Positions 2,423 to 28,438 of a stretch of 64,000 bases of DNA are shown here, piece after piece; position 1 is the stretch's first letter, and each line of letters starts with the position of its first letter. Origin of the DNA: Halorubrum sp. Hd13 (GTDB lineage Archaea > Halobacteriota > Halobacteria > Halobacteriales > Haloferacaceae); the NCBI RefSeq assembly GCF_002252755.1, contig NZ_NHOY01000078.1, positions 289 through 64,288 on the forward strand. The letters are read 5' to 3'. A program made the translations under genes and the position numbers. The notes under the pieces are model-generated. The model ran no database searches. It was not told the DNA's origin and saw nothing but the letters and a program-made list of their open reading frames with translations.

Positions 2423-3550
2423 TCATCCCTCGCCCAACGGGATCGAGAGGCCGCCGGCCACGCGCTCGACGTCGGTCCCGAACGCCGCGGAGCGCTCCGC
2501 GACGGTCTCCCGAACCCACTCGGCGACGTCGGGGTCCGCGATCGTCGCCGCCTCGTCGACGATCGCGGTCGGCTCGACGAACAGCTCGTCGAGGTCGCCG
2601 TCGCGGACGACCAGCTCGAACAGCGCGCTGCGCTTGTTGTGAACCCCCTGCCGGTCGACGTAGTCGACGTAGTCGTCGACGAAGTCGCCCGCGTCGTAGA
2701 CGATCGGCCGCCCCCGATACACCTCGACGCCCTGGAGGACGTGCGCGCTGTGGCCGTGGACGACGTCGACGCCCCGATCGACGAGCCACCGCCCGAACCG
2801 CTCGTGGACCCGCCGCGGTTCGGTCTCCCAGTTCGCGCCCCAGTGCAGGGAGGCGACGACGAGGTCCGGATCGTGCGAGCGGGCGCTCTCGAGAACCCCC
2901 TCGACGAGCGAGCGCGTCGCTGGGATCGAGGGATCGAGCGTCGCGAAGGCGGTGCCGGGCTCTTCTTGAGCCGCAGCGAACGCCTCGGACTGGTCGGTGA
3001 GGCCGAACGCCGCGACCGTGACGTCGCCCGCCTCGAACACCGCCGGCTCGAGCGCCGCCCCGAGATCGGTCCCGGCACCGGCGTGGGCGATCCCGGCGTC
3101 GCCGAGGTGCGTCCGCGTGTCGCGGAGCGCGGGCTCGCGGAAGTCGAGGATGTGGTTGTTCGCGAGCGAGACGAACGAGGCGCCGGCGGCCTCCAGCGCC
3201 GGCACGGCGAACGAGGGATCCGACCGGAAGTAGTACACCTTGTCGGGCCACCGCGTGCCGCGCTCGGAGACGCAACACTCCAGATTGGCGACGAGCCCGT
3301 CGAGCTCCGCGAGGCGCGGCAGCGTCGGCCCCCAGACCCCCGCGGGGTCGTCGTCGGCCCACCGCTCGTTCACGCTGCGCCCGAGCATGAGGTCGCCGAC
3401 GAACCCGAGCCGCGCGTCGACGTCGGCGGCGTTCGGGTCCTCGCGTCCCCCGGCCTCGTCGTTACGTCCGCCCGACGGGGACGCGACGCAGCCGGCGACG
3501 CCCGCCAGTCCGGCGACGCCCGACGCCAACAGGGTTCGGCGAGTTCGCAT
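2423..3550 (-). CDS. CapA family metallophosphatase-like lipoprotein
   Basis: A 375-residue protein of the CapA / poly-gamma-glutamate system family (calcineurin-like fold). The N-terminus MRTRRTLLASGVAG has a twin-arginine pair followed by a lipobox-like VAGC, so export by Tat and lipid anchoring outside the membrane are likely, as for many haloarchaeal lipoproteins. Family blocks are in order: GFVGDLMLGRSVNERW, NLECCVSERG, SLANNHILDF, SLHWGANWE and VVHGHSAHVLQGVEVY, containing the Asp, Asn and His expected for metal binding. Bacterial CapA takes part in capsule polymer synthesis or anchoring. The archaeal substrate is unknown. Its position beside DUF368 and AglB suggests a cell-envelope role. 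Confidence 0.85.
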   Translation of the reverse strand: MRTRRTLLASGVAGLAGVAGCVASPSGGRNDEAGGREDPNAADVDARLGFVGDLMLGRSVNERWADDDPAGVWGPTLPRLAELDGLVANLECCVSERGTRWPDKVYYFRSDPSFAVPALEAAGASFVSLANNHILDFREPALRDTRTHLGDAGIAHAGAGTDLGAALEPAVFEAGDVTVAAFGLTDQSEAFAAAQEEPGTAFATLDPSIPATRSLVEGVLESARSHDPDLVVASLHWGANWETEPRRVHERFGRWLVDRGVDVVHGHSAHVLQGVEVYRGRPIVYDAGDFVDDYVDYVDRQGVHNKRSALFELVVRDGDLDELFVEPTAIVDEAATIADPDVAEWVRETVAERSAAFGTDVERVAGGLSIPLGEG

Positions 3551-3616: not shown

Positions 3617-4561
3617 TCAGTACTCGATCGCCGCGGAGTACCGGTCGAGCACGAACACGAACGCCGCGCCGACGAGCGCCGCGAGCGCGAACCGCGGCGC
3701 CGCCCCCTGCCACGACTCCCCGCTCTCGGCGAGTCGAGTCGAGACCTCGAGAAGCGGCGCCCGGAGCGCGCCGACGACGAGGCTCACGAGGAACGCGAGC
3801 GTGGCGGCTCGAGCGCGGGCGAGCGCGTACCTGACCGTGTGCGCGATGGTGAACAGCCCGACGACCCCGCCGAGGAGAAACGTCAGGACCGGCGGGAGCG
3901 TCTCGACGAGCGCGTCGCTCCCGTTCCCGGTCAGGAACGCGGCGAGCCCGTCGACGGCCCGGCTCACGGTCCCAGACATGTACTCGTACTGGCCGAGCAC
4001 GATCAGGAGGAGCGACCCCGAGATGCCCGGGAGCACCATCGCGCTGACCGCGACCGCGCCGGCGACGAAGACGAGCGGCAGCGAGCTGCCGAGGCCGGCC
4101 GAGGCGACGCCCGAGGCGAGAAAGGCAAGGAGGAAGCCCGCGACCGCCGCCGCCTGCCGCCGGGGCGTGTCGAGCGTGACGCCGCGGAGCAACACCGCCG
4201 CGCTCGCCGCGATCAGCCCGAAGAAGAAGCCGTACGTCGCGACCGGCCGCGTCGCGAGCAGGTAGTTGACGCCGCTCAACACGGTGACGACGGCCGTGCC
4301 GATCCCCGCGCCGAGCACGAGCAGGAAGGCGCCGTCGATCTCGTGGAACGCGGCGCGGGCGTCCGGGATATTGGCGGGTCGGACGCCGGCGAGCACGCGT
4401 CGAATTCGAGACGGGTCGACCGCGGTCACGGCCGCGATCAGGCGCTCGTAGATGCCGACGATGAGCGCGATGGTGCCGCCGGAGACGCCGGGGACCGCGT
4501 CGGCGCTCCCCATCGCGACGCCCTTCAGGTACAGCGTCGCCCACTCTCGAAGGCCGGCCAT
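3617..4561 (-). CDS. DUF368 (PopT-type) polyprenyl-phosphate translocase
   Basis: A 314-residue polytopic membrane protein of the DUF368 family. The N-terminal block LKGVAMGSADAVPGVSGGT, with its PGVSGG signature, is repeated later as VLPGISGSLLL, the internal duplication typical of the family. Bacterial DUF368 (PopT) returns undecaprenyl phosphate across the membrane for reuse. Archaea use dolichyl phosphate, so the likely role here is flipping dolichyl phosphate back to the cytosolic side. The start codon lies 6 bp after the stop of aglB on the same strand, so the two genes almost certainly form one transcript. AglB transfer plus pyrophosphate removal leaves exactly the lipid such a carrier would return. 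Family assignment is strong; the dolichol substrate is inference. Confidence 0.85.
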   Translation of the reverse strand: MAGLREWATLYLKGVAMGSADAVPGVSGGTIALIVGIYERLIAAVTAVDPSRIRRVLAGVRPANIPDARAAFHEIDGAFLLVLGAGIGTAVVTVLSGVNYLLATRPVATYGFFFGLIAASAAVLLRGVTLDTPRRQAAAVAGFLLAFLASGVASAGLGSSLPLVFVAGAVAVSAMVLPGISGSLLLIVLGQYEYMSGTVSRAVDGLAAFLTGNGSDALVETLPPVLTFLLGGVVGLFTIAHTVRYALARARAATLAFLVSLVVGALRAPLLEVSTRLAESGESWQGAAPRFALAALVGAAFVFVLDRYSAAIEY

Positions 4562-4567
4562 CGCTGG

Positions 4568-7500
4568 TTACGGGCTCGCGCCGATGCCGACGGTCGCCTC
4601 GGCGACAGCGTCCGCCCCGACCGGCGTCGCGGGCGCGACCGTCGCGCTCTCGTTGCTCGATCCGTCGCCGCCGTCGGAGCCGCTCCCGTCGACCGGACAG
4701 TCGGGGTCGCCGCTCGGGCAGTCGATTATCTCCTCTTCGAGCTCGACCGTCGCCGCGGCGTCGTCCGCGCCGACGACCTGCCCCTCGGTCACCTCGACCT
4801 GCCCGACGCGCTGCGTGGTGTACAGGTCGTCGCCGGTCGTCTGCGCGGTGGTGATGGTGTACGCGCCCGTCGCGCGGACGCTGGTGTTCGTGTAGCCGTT
4901 CTCCGGGCCGAACTCGTCGTACCCGGTCGACGAGTACGGCACCGTGAACGCGAACTCGCCGTTCGAATCGGCCTCGGCGTACTGCGTGTACTCGAAGGTC
5001 CCTCCTGCGGGCTTCCGCATCTCGACGGTCGCCTCGACCTCCTGACCGGGCTCGGCGCCCGAGCCCTCGATCGTCGCGCCGGGGACGCGTTCGAACGTCT
5101 TCACGTAGTCGTCCTGGAACGCCGCGAGGAAGGACTCGCCGAGAATGTCCTCGACGCTGGTCCCCTCGGGGACGAGCTGCTGGAGGACACGGACCTGCAG
5201 CGCCGAGGGCGACTGTCCCTGCGCCTGCGAGGCGTGGACGAGCCGGTGGTGTTCGAGCGCGGCGACGCGCTCGGAGGGGAGGTCGCCGACGCCCCCGATC
5301 TGCGCGCTTCCGTCCTGCTCGACGTACTCGCGCGCCGCGGTCATGTTGTCGAACTGCCGCACCGTGGCTGTCGGATCGGCCGGGAGCGTGTTCACCTCGA
5401 CCTGCCCGCCGCTCCGTGTCTCGGCGGTCCGCGTCTCCCAGTCGACAACCACGGGCTCGGGGTCGACCGCGCTACCGTAGTGCTCGTACAGCCGGATCAT
5501 CTGGCTCTCGTGGTAGCGCTGAGTGTTCACCTGCATCACCGTCCGGAAGCCGCCCTGCTCGGTCTGCTGGTAGAGCACGCGGTTGAAGTCGGAGCGCGTC
5601 TCGTTGCCCGAGTAGAACGTGACCGGCGCGCCGAACTTGGAGTTCGGCGAGGCCATCTGCCAGTCGACCATCACGTAGCGGGTGTGTTCGCCCTCCGTGC
5701 TCTGGCTGGCGAGCACCTCGCGGGCCGCCTCCTCACTCGGCGCGAGGAGGTAATCCGCGGCTTCGCCCGCGTTCTGCTGGAACGGATTCGCGTTCGGAAT
5801 GCGCTCCGCGCGGGTGGTGATCCAGTGACCGTAGTCCCACCACGACTGCACGCCGTACGCGCCCTCCGGATACTCGAAGTCGCCGTCGGCCGGGCGCTCG
5901 TAGGTGCCGTACAGCTCCATGGGGTTGTCCGCGCCCTCGAGCTCGCCGGGCGTCGGCGTCTCGTCGTTCATCCACTGGAGGCTCCCGTCCCACTGCGTGA
6001 CGCCCCCGGGACCGGTGTTGGCGCCGGCGGCCCACACGGGGGTCGCCATCGCGACGAGCGGGACGATCAGGACGACGACTAAGGCGATCGCGACCATCGC
6101 CTGCCAGCCCTCGACGTCGCGGACGTCGTCAAGCGACCGGAGGCTGATCGCGTCGAGCGCGACCTGCAGGAAGTACGCCGCGCCGACCGCGACGATCACC
6201 GCGAGGTAGTAGTTGAAGCGGGTCTGCGTGAACGCGGCGCTCCCGATGAACGCCGCCCACACGACGAAGTACAGCTCCTCGGCGTCGTACTCGACGAGGA
6301 ACGTCGCGCCGACGAGGAGAGCCGCGGCGATGACGAGGCCGACGACCTGCCAGCTCACGCCGACGACGCTCCCGACCGCGTCGTAGAGCTGGGGGACCGC
6401 GTAGACAGAGCCGACCACGGCGAGCGCGGCCGGGATGTAGAGGGTGTGGGTGCTGTCGTCGGAGCGGTACAGCGGGCGGGCGACGATGTAGAGCACCGCG
6501 GCGAGCGCGAGGAAGAACGCGAAGCCGTACTGCGAGAGGACGAAGTCGGAGAAGGCGGCCTCCTGAAGTGGCGGTTGGCCCTCACCGATGGTACGGAGGT
6601 TAGCGCTTGCGCTGAAGCCGACGAAGTTCAGGAGATTGCCGGTGATCGTTCGCCAGAGAGAGGGAAGCGCCAGCCAGATGACGCCCGCGGACGCGAGGAT
6701 GAGACCGCCGACGGCCGGCGGATAGGTGTCGACCCCGAGTTCGCGAGACTCCCACTGGCGAGCGAGCCACGCGAGGAAGACGGCGCCGAGGGCAACGCCG
6801 ATCGGGAGGACGACCTGCGTGAGCGAGTAGCTGGTGACGCCGAACGAGAAGTTGTCGAGTGGGATCAGTTGCATCAGGCCGGTGACGCCCATCGCGACGG
6901 CACCGGTAAAGGCGATCGGTTCGGGCGTGGTACCGTGGTACACATCGCTGGTTATCTTGATCGCGAGGAAGACGCCGGTAAACCCGACCATGAGGACGCC
7001 CGGCTGCCACGTCCACATATAAAGGCCTAGTGCGACGCCCGCGGCGGCCGCGTACGCGGTCGGACGCTTCAGCGCGTCCCAGTCGCGATCGACGACGAGT
7101 TCCCAGACAGGCGCCTCGCGCTCGGCGACCGCGAAGGCGACGAGGAACGCGAGGACGGCGAGACTCTGGAAGAGCACTTCGGCCGCACTGTGGTCCGGGA
7201 AGCCGACGAGACTGTAGCTGAAGAAGGTGCCCGGCAGGAGCGCGAGGACGACGACGGCGGCGGCCGCGGCGAATCGGTCGACGAACCGGCGCGCGATGAA
7301 GTAGGTCGGGATCGCGACGAGTGCACCCGCGATGGGGGCCATGATGAGCATGACTTCCTCGGTGCTGCCCATGATCGGCCGGGCGATCCAGACGCTGACC
7401 GCCATGATGTGGTCCCACAGCGTGCCGAACTGCCCGGCCGACCGGCCGACGGGGAAGCCAGTCCAGACGTCGAAGGGGAGGCTGTTCGGCCAGTTCTCGA

Positions 7501-7708
7501 GGAGGTAACTGGTCTCGCGTAAGTGGTACCACGCGTCGTTGCCGCGGAAGTACACCTCGCCGTTCTGTATGAAGTTACCGTACGATCGAAGACGAGTCCA
7601 TAGCATGAACACCACGGCCCCGAGGAGGACGGGGACGTGGTACCACCGTTGGAGGACCTCGAAGGGTGATCTCTCGTGGTCCCTGACGGCGTCGGTTTGC
7701 TCGCTCAT
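4568..7708 (-). CDS. aglB: AglB, archaeal oligosaccharyltransferase (STT3 family)
   Basis: A 1046-residue dolichyl-(di)phosphooligosaccharide protein transferase, the usual haloarchaeal length. A short cytosolic N-terminus is followed by an acidic loop with GNDAW (Asp58), which binds metal and the lipid-linked sugar. A long series of membrane helices reaches about residue 560. The external domain carries the invariant SWWDYGHWI motif (Trp623-Gly627) that recognises the +2 Thr/Ser of the sequon. A beta-rich C-terminal domain ends in a Ser/Gly/Asp-rich tail. It glycosylates Asn in N-X-S/T on S-layer proteins, pilins and archaellins at the outer face. It is divergent from an AglG-like transferase, as in Haloferax, and is followed closely by DUF368. 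Confidence 0.97.
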   Translation of the reverse strand: MSEQTDAVRDHERSPFEVLQRWYHVPVLLGAVVFMLWTRLRSYGNFIQNGEVYFRGNDAWYHLRETSYLLENWPNSLPFDVWTGFPVGRSAGQFGTLWDHIMAVSVWIARPIMGSTEEVMLIMAPIAGALVAIPTYFIARRFVDRFAAAAAVVVLALLPGTFFSYSLVGFPDHSAAEVLFQSLAVLAFLVAFAVAEREAPVWELVVDRDWDALKRPTAYAAAAGVALGLYMWTWQPGVLMVGFTGVFLAIKITSDVYHGTTPEPIAFTGAVAMGVTGLMQLIPLDNFSFGVTSYSLTQVVLPIGVALGAVFLAWLARQWESRELGVDTYPPAVGGLILASAGVIWLALPSLWRTITGNLLNFVGFSASANLRTIGEGQPPLQEAAFSDFVLSQYGFAFFLALAAVLYIVARPLYRSDDSTHTLYIPAALAVVGSVYAVPQLYDAVGSVVGVSWQVVGLVIAAALLVGATFLVEYDAEELYFVVWAAFIGSAAFTQTRFNYYLAVIVAVGAAYFLQVALDAISLRSLDDVRDVEGWQAMVAIALVVVLIVPLVAMATPVWAAGANTGPGGVTQWDGSLQWMNDETPTPGELEGADNPMELYGTYERPADGDFEYPEGAYGVQSWWDYGHWITTRAERIPNANPFQQNAGEAADYLLAPSEEAAREVLASQSTEGEHTRYVMVDWQMASPNSKFGAPVTFYSGNETRSDFNRVLYQQTEQGGFRTVMQVNTQRYHESQMIRLYEHYGSAVDPEPVVVDWETRTAETRSGGQVEVNTLPADPTATVRQFDNMTAAREYVEQDGSAQIGGVGDLPSERVAALEHHRLVHASQAQGQSPSALQVRVLQQLVPEGTSVEDILGESFLAAFQDDYVKTFERVPGATIEGSGAEPGQEVEATVEMRKPAGGTFEYTQYAEADSNGEFAFTVPYSSTGYDEFGPENGYTNTSVRATGAYTITTAQTTGDDLYTTQRVGQVEVTEGQVVGADDAAATVELEEEIIDCPSGDPDCPVDGSGSDGGDGSSNESATVAPATPVGADAVAEATVGIGASP

Positions 7709-7730: not shown

Positions 7731-7783
7731 GTCCATAAGACTTGTTATATACCGCCCGGCGGCGGGTTCAGAACCCTTATTGA
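7731..7783. promoter_or_regulatory. Divergent promoter region between aglB and the AglG-like gene
   Basis: For the rightward gene a TATA-like CCTTATTG at 7775-7782 sits about 28 nt before its ATG at 7807, predicting a leaderless transcript. For aglB the reverse strand shows CTTATGG at 7733-7739, about 28 nt before its ATG at 7708. A second AT-rich box, TATATAAC, lies at 7744-7751 (reverse strand). Which of the two drives aglB is not decidable from sequence. Confidence 0.5.
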
Positions 7784-7806
7784 TCCGGGGAGAAAATTCG
7801 GCGACA

Positions 7807-8745
7807 ATGAAGGTCTCCGTCGTCGTCTGCACGTACACGATGGACCGCTACGACGTCTTCACGGAGGCCGTCGAGAGCGCACTCGCGCAGACGTACGACC
7901 CGATCGAGGTCGTGCTCGTGATCGACGGCAACCCCGAGGTGTACGAGCGGGCGGTCGAGGATTTCGGTGACTATGAGAACGTCGTCATTTACGACAACGA
8001 CGAGAATCGGGGGATCTCATACAGTCGGACGCGGGGCGCGGAGCTGGCGTCAGGCGAAATTGTCGCGTTCATCGACGACGACGGGGTAGCCGAGGAAGAC
8101 TGGATCGCGAAACTCGTCGAGGTGTATGAGGACACAGATGCGATTGCGGTCGGCGGCGACGTCCGTCCGAATTGGAAAGGCGAGCAACCCGCTTTTTTCC
8201 CCGAAGAGTTCTACTGGCTCGTCGGCTGTGTTGAGCCGGAGTTTGCCGAGGACGGCGAGGAGGTTCGGAACACTTACGGGTCGAACATCTCATACCGTCG
8301 TGAGAAATTTTTGGAAGTGGGCGGGTACGACCCGAACACGGGCCGGAAGGGCGACAAACACTTACAGGCGCACGAAGCACCGGTCGGCATTCGTCTGATC
8401 GAGGAATTCGGACAGGGGATGGTGTACGCTGAGGATGCCGTGGTGCATCACACACTGTTCGAATACCGTGGGGAGTTCCGGTGGCTGTTGTTCCGATCGT
8501 TTTGGCAGGGCTACTCGAAGCGCGTGATGGACCTCCTGTATCCGCAGGCACCCGATGCCAAGGGCGACTATCTGAAGTGGTTAGTAGCTGATCGGGTGCT
8601 ACGGCGGCTGAAAGGGTTACTCCTATCACCCTCGACAGCGGTAGTATTACAGTTGGGGGCTATCGCCGCGTTCACCGCAGCGGTTGGGTTAGGATATATT
8701 TACGCGACGCTGACTCCGAATTTGGTGGAACAGGCTAACGCGTAG
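7807..8745 (+). CDS. AglG-like family 2 glycosyltransferase
   Basis: A 312-residue GT2 enzyme. The ATG at 7807 was chosen over an in-frame codon at 7780 because the GT-A fold begins at once (MKVSVVVCTYTMDRYD) and a TATA box is correctly spaced. The nucleotide-sugar site is visible as VVLVIDGN and VAFIDDDGVAE (the DxD-type metal motif). YGSNISYRREKFLEVGGYD is the acceptor-side block. A hydrophobic C-terminal helix should anchor it to the inner face of the membrane, where it would extend a dolichol-linked glycan. Sequence style and position beside aglB match Haloferax AglG, which adds the second sugar. The exact sugar is not certain. The 3' end overlaps the convergent GT2 gene by 11 bp. Confidence 0.85.
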   Translation: MKVSVVVCTYTMDRYDVFTEAVESALAQTYDPIEVVLVIDGNPEVYERAVEDFGDYENVVIYDNDENRGISYSRTRGAELASGEIVAFIDDDGVAEEDWIAKLVEVYEDTDAIAVGGDVRPNWKGEQPAFFPEEFYWLVGCVEPEFAEDGEEVRNTYGSNISYRREKFLEVGGYDPNTGRKGDKHLQAHEAPVGIRLIEEFGQGMVYAEDAVVHHTLFEYRGEFRWLLFRSFWQGYSKRVMDLLYPQAPDAKGDYLKWLVADRVLRRLKGLLLSPSTAVVLQLGAIAAFTAAVGLGYIYATLTPNLVEQANA

Positions 8746-9628
8746 GGGCACGGAGGTTACGTTTGGTGCCGAACAAAAACTCGTAGTAATAGCCCAGTCC
8801 ACGAGTTGCAAGCATGGCAACAGATAGAAAAAAGAACACTATGCGAGTAAACACTGAGATTGGAGACTCCTCTGCATCATTCCCACTCGGTCTCGTTGGG
8901 GTTGGAGGAAGTCCGGGACGGCCGAAGCGATCTGGGTAATACCGTTGCTTCTGGGTAAAACCGCGGCCTACGCGGAAGTTCTTTTTCCCGAGTGATTTGA
9001 CCGAGGTTCGAGCAGGATGGAATACGGTAGCATCTGCGGCGTATCCTTGTGTGTAACCTGCCTCGAAGACTCGTTCGCCAAACTCTCGATCACCGCCTGA
9101 GGTGAGTCTTGCATCAAACTGTCCGATATCATCAAAAACATAGCGCCGGACAACCAGCGCACATGTCGGTGCGTAATGCTCCTCCCGGAGATACCACTCT
9201 ACTGGAAATCCCGTCCGGACATCGTACCGACCGACAAGCGTGTCTGTTGGGAGTGTTAGTTCTACATTGCAACCGAGGTAGTCCGCGTTTTGACGCTGCA
9301 TGGCATCTAATGCGGTCTCAAACCAGTCATTGTCGATAGTTTCATTAGCATCAAGAAACGCAATGATGTCGCTCTTGGTATGTTCGATACCTACGTTGCG
9401 AGCGGCGTATGATCCCTGAATTTCATCTTCGACGAGAAGGTGAATATTTTGATACTCATTAGTATAGTCTTGAATAACTTCACGGGTGTGGTCAGTCGAC
9501 CCGTTATCCACTACGAAAACAGTGAGATCATGAAATCCCCGCAACGAGCTAATCGACGCTAGTGTATTTCGAATCCCGACTGGATCGTTGTAAACTGGAA
9601 TGACTATCGAAACAGAGTGCGAGGGCAT
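8735..9628 (-). CDS. Family 2 glycosyltransferase
   Basis: A 297-residue GT2 enzyme. MPSHSVSIVIPVYNDPVG opens the GT-A fold. VFVVDNGSTDHTREV and IIAFLDANETIDNDWF carry the nucleotide-binding Asp and a divergent DxN in place of the usual DxD. GGDREFGERVFEAGY is the catalytic-base region. A hydrophobic stretch near the C-terminus (VFTRIVFFFLSVAMLATRG) suggests membrane association. It is convergent with the AglG-like gene, ends inside it, and has lower GC than the aglB region, so it marks the beginning of the variable glycan block. The donor and acceptor are unknown. Confidence 0.85.
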   Translation of the reverse strand: MPSHSVSIVIPVYNDPVGIRNTLASISSLRGFHDLTVFVVDNGSTDHTREVIQDYTNEYQNIHLLVEDEIQGSYAARNVGIEHTKSDIIAFLDANETIDNDWFETALDAMQRQNADYLGCNVELTLPTDTLVGRYDVRTGFPVEWYLREEHYAPTCALVVRRYVFDDIGQFDARLTSGGDREFGERVFEAGYTQGYAADATVFHPARTSVKSLGKKNFRVGRGFTQKQRYYPDRFGRPGLPPTPTRPSGNDAEESPISVFTRIVFFFLSVAMLATRGLGYYYEFLFGTKRNLRAPTR

Positions 9629-13720: not shown

Positions 13721-15151
13721 ATGCGTCTAGGTCAGACATCTCTTGTCCATTTCGCGTCGCGGTTTTTAGCTTCTGTACTCGGATTTGTTTCGACGGTGTT
13801 TATCGGACGAATACTTGGATCCAGCGGTCTCGGTACGTATTACCTGGTGCTCTCGATGATTGCGTGGCTCGGAATAGCGACGAAATTTGGAGTCCCTGGC
13901 GCGGTCACAAAACGAGTCAGCGAAGGCGAGTCACAGAGCGCACACACGATTGCTGGTGTATCAATTAGCACTGGTCTGTTTATTCTCGTTGCGGGTTGTG
14001 TGCTCGTTTTTAGAGAGCCAGTCAACAACTATGTCGGCTATCCCGCCGCTAATTTTGTCGTCTTGTTGCTATTCGCGAATATTGCACAGACACTTGTCAA
14101 CGCCGTATTAAAAGGCCAACAGCTAGTTCACATCTCTGGGATATTCAATCCAATTCGCACCGGAACACGGAGTGTAGTGCAGATTACCACTCTATTTGCA
14201 GGGCTGGGCCTTGTTGGATTATTCGCTGGGTACACCGTCGGATATGCGCTTGTTGCGGTACTTGGAACATATATTGTCGTGCGAAATTTCGATCAAATAT
14301 CGCTTCCACGCCGCTCTCATTTTCGGAACATCCTCTCGTATGCGAAGTTTTCGTGGATTGGATCTCTCCGTAGCCGAGCGTTCAATTGGGTGGACGTGTC
14401 TATTCTTGGGTTCTTTGTGTCGACATCACTTGTTGGCATCTACACCGCAGCTTGGAACATTGCGGTGTTTCTGATACTTTTTGGTGGATCATTGAGTCAG
14501 ACTCTCTTTCCCGAGATGAGTTCGCTGTCAGCCGACAATGATCAAGAACAAGTCAGCGATCTGTTTGAAACGGCACTTGCCTTTGCAGGACTAATTCTGA
14601 TTCCCGGCTTCGTAGGTGCAACAGTCCTTGGCGAACGGTTGCTCCGAGTGTATGGTAGTGAGTTCTCTCAAGGTGCGGTTGTTCTCTCCGTACTTATTAT
14701 AGCAACACTCATTCAGGGGTACCAACGTCAGTTCACAACTACTTTAAATGCGATTGACAGGCCGGATCTATCGTTTCGTGTCAATGCTGTGTTTATCATC
14801 GGTAATGTAATTTTAAATGTGAGTGTTATTCCATTCTACAATATCTTCGGTGCAGCCGCTGCAACGGCAGCATCGGTCGCGATAAGTCTCGGAGTAGCCT
14901 ATGTATTACTCTCGTCACAGATTGGATTTTCTGTACCAACTCAAGAGATCGCTAAACAATGGGTTGCTGCGGGTCTGATGGGAGTAGTCGTGTTTATCGG
15001 ATTGTCTTTAGAGGAAACCCACTCACTGATTGGGATCAACATTGTCACTGTACTCGTCCTAGTCGGACTTGGCGCAACAGTGTATTTCGCGACGTTATTA
15101 GTGATCTCTTCACGCTTCCGGACAACGATCAAAGATAACCTACCAGTGTAG
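13721..15151 (+). CDS. Polysaccharide/oligosaccharide flippase (MOP superfamily)
   Basis: A 476-residue integral membrane protein with about 12-14 helices. It begins LVHFASRFLASVLGFVSTVF, followed by GRILGSSGLGTYYL, the typical N-terminus of Wzx/RfbX-type flippases in the MOP exporter superfamily. Haloferax AglR, proposed to move dolichol-linked sugars outward, belongs to the same family. It would carry a lipid-linked glycan made by the neighbouring transferases to the outer face. It is the last intact gene before a decayed insertion sequence. A second, only distantly similar flippase lies at 38036, so the window may encode two export routes. Confidence 0.87.
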   Translation: MRLGQTSLVHFASRFLASVLGFVSTVFIGRILGSSGLGTYYLVLSMIAWLGIATKFGVPGAVTKRVSEGESQSAHTIAGVSISTGLFILVAGCVLVFREPVNNYVGYPAANFVVLLLFANIAQTLVNAVLKGQQLVHISGIFNPIRTGTRSVVQITTLFAGLGLVGLFAGYTVGYALVAVLGTYIVVRNFDQISLPRRSHFRNILSYAKFSWIGSLRSRAFNWVDVSILGFFVSTSLVGIYTAAWNIAVFLILFGGSLSQTLFPEMSSLSADNDQEQVSDLFETALAFAGLILIPGFVGATVLGERLLRVYGSEFSQGAVVLSVLIIATLIQGYQRQFTTTLNAIDRPDLSFRVNAVFIIGNVILNVSVIPFYNIFGAAAATAASVAISLGVAYVLLSSQIGFSVPTQEIAKQWVAAGLMGVVVFIGLSLEETHSLIGINIVTVLVLVGLGATVYFATLLVISSRFRTTIKDNLPV

Positions 15152-24245: not shown

Positions 24246-27200
24246 ATGTCCGGCCGTAAAGCAACCGCTATCTGGCTCTGTATTGTAGTCATATTTGCAG
24301 CAGTGACTCTTTCAGGCGGGAGCAGCATCGGAGCCGAAGCTGCCGCAGTGAACGCCGAGTTTCAAGTAACGAACGCCAGCCTTGAGCAGTCGGAGGTCGT
24401 CGAGGGAGACACCGCCACGATCACAGCCGACATCGAGAACGTGGGCACTGAGACAGGGACATTCACGGCCGAGCTAAGGAGCGACGCAGACGGCGTTATC
24501 AACACCACAGATGTTGAGATCAGACCGGACGAGACGCGAACTGTCGACTTTCGTCACCCGTTCGAGAACACAGGCACCTACGAGCTCAACGTCAACGGTA
24601 CGGATGCAGGAGAACTCACTGTTACGGAACCCCCCTCAGCCGAATTCGACGTGACAGCGGTGACGCTGTCTGAATCCGAGATTACCGTCGGCGAGACGGT
24701 CACCGTGACAGCTGAGATTGCCAATATCGGAGATGCAGACGACACGTATACGGCCGAACTACAGCGTAATGGCACTGCCAGAGAATCCAAATCCGTCGAC
24801 GTTGCTGCCGGTGAGACGGCGACGGTTAGTTTCACGCCGTCGTTCGAGACGGCAGGTGATTACGCGATCGGTATCGGTGACGGTCCCACGCAGACACTCA
24901 CCGCCGACCAACCGCAACCAGCAAACGTCTCAGTCACAGACGCAGAGCTGTCAGAGACGCGGCTCGACCCTGGTGAGTCGGTAACGGTCACAGCAACCGT
25001 CGAAAACGACGGTGGGACTGCAGGCGAGATTACTGCCGACCTCCAAGTTGACGGGACGACGAGAACCTCCGAGATGCGCACCGTTGATCCTAGCGAGCAA
25101 ACGACGATCGAGTTCACCCCGAGCTTTGCGGAGGCGGGAACGTACGGAATCGCCGTCAACGATGAGTCGGCTGGTACCCTCACAGTCTCGGAACCCGCAG
25201 CGTTTGAGGTGTCAAACGCGTCTCTCGGTGACGACACCATCTTGGCAGGCGGCACCGCCGTCGTGTCCGCTGAGGTAACAAACGTCGGCGATACTGAGGG
25301 AACATTTAACCTGGAGTTCCGCGCGACGAACCAGGATGGCACCACCGAAACGGTCGATACGCGATCAGTGATGCTTGGAGGCGGAGAATCACAAACAGTC
25401 GAGCTACGTGGAGCCATAGATGAGCCCGGTGAGTACGACGTGCAGATCAACCAGACTGCGGCTGGGACACTAATGATCGAATCACCAGCAAATCTGGCAG
25501 TCACCGACGCAGAACTCGAGGGGGACGTTGTGGACGCTGGTGAGGAGGTTACGGTGAGCGCCACCATCGAGAACACGGGCGACCGTGAGGGGACGCTATC
25601 AGTTTCGGCAGCGGCCGGTGGGGATGTCAAGACGACCGAGGCGGTAACCGTCGGCCCCGGGGAGACCAGAACACAACAACTCACCTACACAGCGACTGCC
25701 GCCGGCGAGTACGAAATCACCGTGAACGGGATGACTGCTGAAACGCTCACTGTGATCCGCCCGGCAACGTTCCGAACGACAAATCCTGATATCGAGTCGG
25801 ACACAGTACTTGAGAGCGAGCCAACCGAGGTGACCGCAACCATCGTGAACGTTGGGACCGAATCAGGCACACACACCGCCACGTTAGTCGTCGACGGTGA
25901 GTCCGTTGCGACGCAAGCACTCGATATCGGTCCTGGTGACAGCGAGACAGTCGTATTTTCACGGGCGTTCGATGAGGCAGATGAGTACGCAATCGCCGTG
26001 AACAACGACACGGCCGGCACGCTCAGTGTGCTCGAACCCGCGAACGTCTCGATCCGTGAGACCACGCTTTCATCCGAGACGATTACTGCCGGTGAGTCTG
26101 TCACGGTGACCGTCGTTCTCACAAATGACGGCGATGTCGACGGCGAACTCACGACACAGCTTCGGGACGGCAACGCCACGCTTGGGACCGACATTCGGAC
26201 GGTCGGTCCGGATGCCAACGAGACCGTTCGCTTCAATCGGACGTTCGAGACGTCCGGCGACTACGATCTCGCCGTCAACAACGACGGTGTTGGCACCCTA
26301 GCCGTGCTCGAACCAGCCGATGTGTCGCTCGGCGAAACGACCGTTTCCTCCGACTCGGTCGAGGTCAACGAGTCAGTGGAGTTTATGATCGATCTCCGGA
26401 ACGATGGCGAGGCCACCGGGCAACGAGACGTCGACATCGCACTTGGTGATGGGACTGTCATCCAGCGATCGTCTGCCGTCCCCGAGAACGGAACGACGCT
26501 GACGGTCACTCATGCATACAACGCAACCGGAGAGTATACCGTTGCAGTCGATGAGATGACCGTCGCCAACGTCACCGTTGACGACCCAGAGCCGACTAGC
26601 GGCTCCGGTGGCGGAGGTGGAGGAGGTGGGGGCGGATCATCTGGGGCATCCGGCTCATCGGGGTCGACGACGACAGGCGGTGCCGATCCGACCGTGGTCC
26701 GGTCTGAGTCGGAGGAGGCTGTCAGCGTCAGCGTTGTTGGTGGGAGCGGCGAGCCCTACGATATTGCGGTAGACCTCGCTGGCCCATCGGCGTCACAGTC
26801 CGCAGTGGCAGTGTCCTCTGTCGGGATCGACCCGACTGGTGAGCCAACAGTGTACGAAACGACCATCGGCCAGCCAACGGCCGAGCCCAGCGATCGCAAC
26901 CCTGCCCCTTACGGGGTGGCGCTGGGATATCTGGAGTTCAATGCCTCGCTTGACGCAGCCAGTACCAGTGCAGCAACGCTCCAATTCACCGTCGATGAGG
27001 GTGCAATTCCGAGTGGCCTCAGCCAAGAGAACGTCAGCGTGTACCGGTATGCCGACAGCGAGTGGACGATGGCGAACGTGACCCACGATGTCGACGGCGA
27101 CACACATACGGTGACACTCCCACACGCGATGCCCGTAGCCGTCGTCGCGCTCGATCCCGGACGCGTGGAGATTGTCGAGAGTGTCGTGCCTGCCGAACAG

Positions 27201-27551
27201 GTCCGGGCAGGGTACGAGACGACGCTTCGGACGACGGTTGTCAACCCCGGTGACAGCCCGGCAACCCGTGCTCTCACCGTCAGCATGGACGGCGAACCCG
27301 TTACTGAACGCGAAGTGACGCTCGATCCGGGGGAAAATGCAACCGTCCGAATCGAGTTTGAACCATCCGAAAGCGGATCTGTCTCACTCGAGGGGACTGA
27401 GGTCGGCGACGTCACGCTGTTCGGTGTCGACGACGGGAACACGACGACAGCGGACCCGGAGACGAACGAGAACGTTCCGGGGTTCGGTGTTGGTGCTGCA
27501 GTGCTCGCGCTGCTCGTGACAGCACTCGGTGTCCGGAGTCGGCGATCATAA
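24246..27551 (+). CDS. Large CARDB-repeat surface protein with PGF-CTERM anchor
   Basis: A 1101-residue exported protein. A signal peptide (IWLCIVVIFAAVTLSGGSS) is followed by eight Ig-like repeats of about 90 residues, each opening with (A/S)xFxVTNASLxx or a variant, continuing through GExVTVxAxIxNxGxxxGT and closing with a Gly-(E/D)-Y-x-I/L-x-V-N strand. This is the CARDB/cell-adhesion pattern. A Gly/Ser linker (residues ~785-810) then leads to a PGF-pre-PGF domain, a ninth CARDB-like unit and the tail VPGFGVGAAVLALLVTALG with terminal Arg residues, a PGF-CTERM anchor. It should be lipid-anchored outside the cell as a stalk or adhesin. Several N-X-S/T sequons make it a likely AglB substrate. 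A ligand cannot be predicted. Confidence 0.88.
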   Translation: MSGRKATAIWLCIVVIFAAVTLSGGSSIGAEAAAVNAEFQVTNASLEQSEVVEGDTATITADIENVGTETGTFTAELRSDADGVINTTDVEIRPDETRTVDFRHPFENTGTYELNVNGTDAGELTVTEPPSAEFDVTAVTLSESEITVGETVTVTAEIANIGDADDTYTAELQRNGTARESKSVDVAAGETATVSFTPSFETAGDYAIGIGDGPTQTLTADQPQPANVSVTDAELSETRLDPGESVTVTATVENDGGTAGEITADLQVDGTTRTSEMRTVDPSEQTTIEFTPSFAEAGTYGIAVNDESAGTLTVSEPAAFEVSNASLGDDTILAGGTAVVSAEVTNVGDTEGTFNLEFRATNQDGTTETVDTRSVMLGGGESQTVELRGAIDEPGEYDVQINQTAAGTLMIESPANLAVTDAELEGDVVDAGEEVTVSATIENTGDREGTLSVSAAAGGDVKTTEAVTVGPGETRTQQLTYTATAAGEYEITVNGMTAETLTVIRPATFRTTNPDIESDTVLESEPTEVTATIVNVGTESGTHTATLVVDGESVATQALDIGPGDSETVVFSRAFDEADEYAIAVNNDTAGTLSVLEPANVSIRETTLSSETITAGESVTVTVVLTNDGDVDGELTTQLRDGNATLGTDIRTVGPDANETVRFNRTFETSGDYDLAVNNDGVGTLAVLEPADVSLGETTVSSDSVEVNESVEFMIDLRNDGEATGQRDVDIALGDGTVIQRSSAVPENGTTLTVTHAYNATGEYTVAVDEMTVANVTVDDPEPTSGSGGGGGGGGGGSSGASGSSGSTTTGGADPTVVRSESEEAVSVSVVGGSGEPYDIAVDLAGPSASQSAVAVSSVGIDPTGEPTVYETTIGQPTAEPSDRNPAPYGVALGYLEFNASLDAASTSAATLQFTVDEGAIPSGLSQENVSVYRYADSEWTMANVTHDVDGDTHTVTLPHAMPVAVVALDPGRVEIVESVVPAEQVRAGYETTLRTTVVNPGDSPATRALTVSMDGEPVTEREVTLDPGENATVRIEFEPSESGSVSLEGTEVGDVTLFGVDDGNTTTADPETNENVPGFGVGAAVLALLVTALGVRSRRS

Positions 27552-27610: not shown

Positions 27611-28438
27611 TCACACTACGACCGAGACGAGGCCGCCACCGACAATAGCGAGCCCACCAAGGCCGAAACAGACAGCCCAGAAGGGAATGCGTTCGACGAC
27701 CCGCATGAGTGCGTCAATCGTGAGATACCCCACGACGGCGCTGACCGCAAGCGCGACGGCTGCGGCTGTGGGACGAATTCCGGGGAGGCCACCCGCGCTG
27801 AGCAGTGTGAGGGCGGCTGCCCCGAGACTGGCTGGAATCGAGAGCAGAAATGAGAGTCGAAATGCGGCCGGCGGATCGTAGCTGCGGAACAGGAAGGTAC
27901 TGGTGGTCATCCCTGACCGCGAGATGCCAGGTAAAATGGCGAGCCCCTGAACGGCACCGACAAGTATCGAATCGGCGAGTGTTGGTGTCGTGTGCCCGTC
28001 CATCCCACCGGACTCAGACGCGAGTTGGAGGATGCCGGTTGCGATAAGCAGCAGCCCAATGCCGGCGATAAAGACGCCGCCGGTGAGTTGGCCAGCCAGA
28101 TCGACGGCAAAGATGTAGAGCGGGATGCCGACGACACCCGTCATAAACGAGGCGACCACGATGTATGAAGCGAGGGCGTTGTCTTCCTCGTAGGCCGCTC
28201 GGGGGCGCCACCCCGGCACTGCCGCAAGTGCGGTCTGGATTTCGTGTCGGTAGTACGTCGCTGCCGAGAGCGTGGTGCCAACCTGTAAAAAGAGCGCGAG
28301 CTGCAGCGCCACCGCGGGGTCGGTGCCGACCAGCGTCAACACTAACGACAAATTCCCCTGACTCGAAACGGGAAGCCATTCGACGACACCCTGCACAAGC
28401 CCGGCGAGAATCGCAATCAGCAGATCCGAGAGCGTCAC
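27611..28438 (-). CDS. uppP: UppP/BacA-like polyprenyl-diphosphate phosphatase
   Basis: A 275-residue membrane protein of the BacA/UppP family. The first signature VQGVVEWLPVSSQGN (residues 15-29) has Gln16 and Glu20, but Asn29 stands where bacterial UppP has His in SSTGH. The second, LPGISRSGMTTSTFL, is intact. Bacterial enzymes remove one phosphate from undecaprenyl diphosphate at the outer face. Here the natural counterpart would be dolichyl diphosphate or another polyprenyl diphosphate. The gene follows cetZ on the same strand (112 bp apart). With the DUF368 protein beside AglB it could form a carrier-recycling route. The missing His is worth noting when assigning activity. Confidence 0.88.
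   Translation of the reverse strand: MTLSDLLIAILAGLVQGVVEWLPVSSQGNLSLVLTLVGTDPAVALQLALFLQVGTTLSAATYYRHEIQTALAAVPGWRPRAAYEEDNALASYIVVASFMTGVVGIPLYIFAVDLAGQLTGGVFIAGIGLLLIATGILQLASESGGMDGHTTPTLADSILVGAVQGLAILPGISRSGMTTSTFLFRSYDPPAAFRLSFLLSIPASLGAAALTLLSAGGLPGIRPTAAAVALAVSAVVGYLTIDALMRVVERIPFWAVCFGLGGLAIVGGGLVSVVV

Follow-up and report, generated by a model that had tools for sequence, protein, structure and literature searches.

Any cell that assembles its glycans on polyprenyl phosphates has to recover the used carrier, and to our knowledge no protein that returns dolichyl phosphate has been established in archaea or eukaryotes. This study deals with a gene pair found on a 64,000-nucleotide stretch of DNA from Halorubrum sp. 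Hd13 (contig NZ_NHOY01000078.1, positions 289 to 64,288 of the forward strand; the whole stretch is hereafter called the window), in which the gene of a DUF368 family membrane protein follows aglB, the gene of the archaeal oligosaccharyltransferase, and whose DUF368 product, judged from its genomic context, probably brings dolichyl phosphate back to the cytoplasmic side once AglB has transferred the glycan. The closest described relatives, VCA0040 of Vibrio cholerae and PopT of Staphylococcus aureus, belong to the same family, PF04018, and to the same NCBIfam models that the window protein matches, but they serve undecaprenyl phosphate (C55-P) and peptidoglycan, whereas the window protein goes with aglB and its substrate would be dolichyl phosphate. 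In bacteria, DUF368 proteins take part in translocating C55-P, that of V. cholerae shows salt and pH dependence, and the family is enriched in halophiles (PMC9876793). A V. cholerae mutant in DUF368 is complemented, at least in part, by the DUF368 protein of Haloferax volcanii (HVO_RS12060), which indirectly supports a polyprenyl-phosphate transport function, and dolichol phosphate translocation was raised in that study as possibly affected (PMC9876793); given this complementation, the haloarchaeal function is less blank than was stated in the first-pass annotation, an earlier reading of this DNA that had called it not settled. The DedA/UptA transporters have the same proposed task, C55-P return (PMC10127716; PMC11474028), but represent a different family (PF09335), one common in Halobacteria but with no conserved place beside aglB.

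On the side of the glycans, those characterised in haloarchaea are mostly built on dolichyl monophosphate, and a second glycan of Halobacterium salinarum rides on the diphosphate (PMC8674786; PMC3871713). Because the N-glycans sit mostly on the monophosphate, AglB mostly leaves dolichyl phosphate outside. Two published agl gene clusters resemble the surroundings of the window pair, namely HVO_1517-HVO_1531 of H. volcanii (PMC3871713) and Hlac_1062-1075 of Halorubrum lacusprofundi (PMC10384203), which share the pathway genes, aglB with glycosyltransferases, AglM and a putative flippase. Their published borders are HVO_1531 (aglM) in the former (PMC3871713) and Hlac_1062 (aglB) in the latter (PMC10384203). 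In the related Haloferax denitrificans, in which the order is aglB, a reversed AglM-type UDP-glucose dehydrogenase gene and DUF368, the DUF368 gene is the next one after aglM. We infer that the DUF368 gene would lie just outside the published clusters of both H. volcanii and Hrr. lacusprofundi, the exact positions being deduced.

In the window, the last base of the aglB stop codon is 4568 and DUF368 opens with an ATG at 4561, with both genes on the same strand and DUF368 second (Table 1). The AglB translation scores over the cut-off of TIGR04154 and contains the WWDYG motif, and the downstream protein passes the gathering cut-off of PF04018, the VCA0040-like, undecaprenyl phosphate translocase-like family; thus, both the coordinates and the two gene identities bear out the first-pass annotation, which had placed DUF368 6 bp behind the aglB stop on the same strand. 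A separate DUF368 promoter would not fit into this gap outside the aglB frame, and the spacing suggests that aglB and DUF368 share one transcript.

To survey the arrangement across the class Halobacteria, 292 whole genomes, representing 77 genera and 11 families and all covered, were searched with the PF04018 and TIGR04154 profiles, and the coordinates of the matches were compared, "directly downstream" being defined as the same strand with at most 2.5 kb between profile matches (in the labels used below, G stands for genome, g for genus, f for family and L for locus). DUF368 was found in 289 of the 292 genomes and both genes in 286, and in 200 of these 286 DUF368 lies directly behind aglB on the same strand; three further genomes have the same order but within 3.2 kb. 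At least one species shows the linkage in 54 of the 77 genera, and nine of the 11 families are represented. In none of the 286 genomes was DUF368 located upstream of aglB, and within 10 kb of aglB it never occupied the other strand. This arrangement is far from chance. DUF368 lies elsewhere in 83 genomes, far away on the same contig in 44 and on another contig in 39, one or two of the latter (such as G162 and G262) probably being contig breaks, and both genes are absent together in G187 and G206. The first-pass annotation had taken the gene pair as strong contextual evidence and had proposed such a neighbour survey, in which DUF368 rarely lying near aglB would have spoken against it. No such rarity was seen, and the evidence gains from a linkage that is ancestral and tight across Halobacteria, while it has to be qualified in that the linkage is not universal.

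The spacing within the pair was compared over 49 genus-level loci, the window included, in which the start was placeable on the assumption of a fixed N-terminal length. The median distance from the aglB stop to the DUF368 start is 33 bp, 24 of the 49 loci have 30 bp or less, and several overlap by 1-4 bp. A gap above 300 bp occurs in two loci, and the inserted gene in both encodes a UDP-glucose dehydrogenase; the inserted dehydrogenases cluster with a protein scoring over the AglM equivalog cut-off, so the genes lodged within the pair belong to the N-glycan pathway as well. As for the flanks, 53 loci show 31 kinds of gene past DUF368, of which the most frequent occurs only six times, and the gene before aglB is the divergent family 2 transferase of an AglG-containing cluster in 22 of 53 genus representatives. 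Therefore, with the flanking genes differing so widely while the pair stays, the pair outlives its surroundings. It often marks the place where a variable glycan cluster gives way to housekeeping genes, a position that could mean passive preservation of an inherited gene order without functional meaning. We regard this explanation as highly improbable, as the two genes stay together and closely spaced despite scrambled flanks and despite the divergence of the linked DUF368 proteins, those of other genera having a median identity of 49% and a lowest of 40% to the window protein.

To trace the history of the linkage, a tree was built of 116 DUF368 proteins, collected by direct motif search with L122 left out. 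As it came from a quick search and 47 of its 113 inner branches are weak, its fine detail is not to be leaned on. All deep branches of Halobacteria include linked copies and, by this phylogeny, the aglB-DUF368 linkage dates from the ancestor of the class. A single clade (SH-aLRT, the Shimodaira-Hasegawa-like approximate likelihood ratio test, 99) unites the unlinked copies from f3, f4 and f11; it groups with Haloferacaceae copies (support 100), which fits a transfer or duplication after which the linked copy was displaced. A few other unlinked copies (f1, f10, one in g31 and one in g58) are interspersed with linked ones and appear to have moved locally. In several displaced genomes aglB is found with its usual other neighbours and DUF368 is gone, and the loss of the linked copy coincides with the presence of the other DUF368 copy. 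A search for remnants behind aglB in unlinked genomes gave one clear case only, G116, in which a DUF368 remnant of 78 residues (L168, 5316-5549, minus strand), 51% identical and with an internal stop, lies about 240 bp behind aglB; this genome also keeps an unlinked DUF368 gene elsewhere. In g2 it is aglB that has moved away, and DUF368 has kept its place beside an AglM gene and its usual neighbours of the glp type. Regarding the surroundings of copies outside the pair, in several f4 genera (L130, 7300-9332; also L133, L134, L135, L140 and L141) the unlinked DUF368 gene and a conserved gene for a family 2 glycosyltransferase are in convergent orientation, and G130 (L227, 6836-8598) has a second DUF368 copy, adjoining a DedA-family gene in divergent orientation, which brings two polyprenyl-phosphate transporter families together.

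Since the arrangement is ancestral to the whole class, DUF368 is a strong candidate for the missing lipid-return step. With somewhat less assurance than for the return role itself, we favor the view that aglB-DUF368 constitutes the ancestral unit in which haloarchaeal N-glycosylation spends its carrier lipid and returns it, whereby DUF368 would be the first dolichyl-phosphate return transporter that gene context assigns to N-glycosylation in archaea. A rival reading is that DUF368 is a general translocase of polyprenyl phosphates or lipids for life at high salt or alkaline pH, which serves every user of dolichyl phosphate and whose position after aglB does no more than keep its expression steady. 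Such a role would agree with its near-universal occurrence in the class (289 of 292), with its retention in three genomes without detected aglB and its location elsewhere in 83, and with the dependence on salt and pH of the V. cholerae protein and the enrichment in halophiles (PMC9876793); however, it would not predict a fixed partner, orientation and spacing in nine families, and we consider it unlikely.

The DUF368 protein itself carries twin PG(V/I)SG motifs, one in each half (residues 24-28 and 178-182), which are conserved in 27 aligned homologues and near-invariant over the 116 homologues of the tree; from the alignment, they read as the family-defining feature of PF04018. An AlphaFold2 model of the protein (mean predicted local distance difference test score, pLDDT, 86.6) is all-helical, with helices broken at both motifs, which may form a putative site for the phosphate head group. 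No solved structure of this fold was found, neither by sequence match in the PDB nor by Foldseek at E ≤ 0.001.

We propose that carrier return by DUF368 could proceed as follows. First, AglB would release dolichyl monophosphate on the outer face of the membrane. The pocket between the two broken-helix PG(V/I)SG motifs could then take up the phosphate head group and re-expose it inside, where dolichyl-phosphate glycosyltransferases would recharge the carrier. Co-expression of aglB and DUF368 would keep the return of the carrier in step with its use, and where the aglB-linked copy has been lost, the unlinked Haloferacaceae-type homologue would do the job.

Transport in the opposite direction, in which DUF368 flips the charged dolichyl-phosphate glycan outward for AglB, would also fit the adjacency to aglB. 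In H. volcanii, AglR is the proposed flippase of dolichyl-phosphate mannose and Agl15 that of the low-salt glycan, and in the parts of that source considered here none is named for the main tetrasaccharide (PMC3871713). Even so, outward flipping appears very unlikely, as the bacterial relatives take bare polyprenyl phosphate as their substrate (PMC9876793) and the window contains a Wzx-type flippase, a related Wzx family occurring in many of the clusters; the Wzx/MurJ-type protein is more likely the exporter of the charged lipid-linked glycan.

Several points weigh against the assignment of DUF368 as the return transporter of the AglB pathway. The window protein scores 180.8 bits with NCBIfam NF052564 (VCA0040 type) and 104 bits with NF052563 (PopT), both below the equivalog cut-off of 400, and it is therefore a family member but an equivalog of neither bacterial protein. 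In addition, aglB occurs without DUF368 in G021, and DUF368 without detected aglB in G118, G226 and G282, so neither gene strictly requires the other. Outside the class, 34 genomes of the wider phylum sample carry DUF368, and aglB was not found beside it in any of the 21 methanogen loci read with 1.5 kb flanks, in which neighbours were judged by eye from translations and not by profiles. Moreover, as dolichyl phosphate serves other pathways, the role of DUF368 may exceed N-glycosylation, and DedA-family proteins (PF09335), present in 76 of the 77 genus representatives, could share the carrier-return task. In a separate observation on the methanogen loci, DUF368 adjoins a gene of an NAD-dependent sugar epimerase in seven of them (L182, L185, L188, L189, L191, L194 and L195).

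Two other protein families were considered, UppP as a general partner and DedA as a substitute beside aglB, and set aside in these roles. The first-pass annotation had suggested that the UppP-like protein at 27611 could help by removing the terminal phosphate of a diphosphate carrier. The gene is real, but it lies 20 kb from the pair and is not a general partner, UppP/BacA being present in 40 of the 77 genus representatives and absent from 37 as well as from the H. volcanii control; a monophosphate carrier calls for no diphosphatase, and UppP is thus not needed. Replacement of the unlinked DUF368 by a DedA gene beside aglB showed no pattern, and among the matches listed only G213 has DedA a few kb away. 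Genome G021 (f5; L152), 98% complete, has both DedA and UppP and represents a natural DUF368-negative haloarchaeon with aglB.

With respect to earlier work, no paper joining DUF368 to AglB was found in the open-access literature, which lacks most subscription papers. It is already in print that DUF368 proteins are polyprenyl-phosphate transporters and present in Halobacteria, as is the idea concerning dolichol phosphate (PMC9876793); what is new here is the ancestral aglB linkage, the history of its loss and replacement, the specific assignment, and the position of DUF368 at the edge of the agl clusters. A gene fixed beside the oligosaccharyltransferase across a class provides a named, deletable candidate in tractable organisms, and the published agl gene clusters would grow by one gene, DUF368.

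Table 1. Features of the window, with positions numbered from its first nucleotide
Feature	Position	Strand	Evidence
PGA_cap (capsule-synthesis type) protein	2423..3550	-	PF09587, 222 bits
DUF368 / VCA0040-PopT family membrane protein, 314 aa	3617..4561	-	PF04018, 208.4 bits (gathering cut-off 26)
Gap between aglB stop and DUF368 ATG, 6 bp	4562..4567	-	Sequence; computed gap 6
AglB oligosaccharyltransferase, 1046 aa	4568..7708	-	TIGR04154 (NCBIfam), 928 bits (cut-off 450); Pfam STT3, AglB_core-like, AglB_L1
AglG-type glucosyl-dolichyl phosphate glucuronosyltransferase, divergent from aglB	7780..8745	+	NF041394, 491 bits (equivalog cut-off 440)
Family 2 glycosyltransferase in the glycan cluster around the pair	8735..9628	-	PF00535, 96.5 bits
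Wzx/MurJ-type flippase	13721..15151	+	PF01943, 68.6 bits; PF03023, 42.1 bits
BacA/UppP-like polyprenyl diphosphatase	27611..28438	-	PF02673, 169 bits

Beyond the AglG-type gene, profiles identified family 2 and family 61 glycosyltransferases, a sulfatase-family protein and the Wzx-type flippase. As aglB, the AglG-type gene, glycosyltransferases and a flippase occur together, the window comprises part of an N-glycan gene cluster. On the other side of the pair, the lipoprotein-like PGA_cap gene starts 66 bp past DUF368 on the same strand and is no conserved partner in other genomes; it is possible that it forms the third member of the aglB-DUF368 transcript. The window also encodes a repetitive secreted protein of 1101 aa (24246-27551, plus strand), the C-terminus of which resembles a PGF-CTERM archaeosortase signal, and the TIGR04154 model that AglB matches is described as archaeosortase A system-associated.

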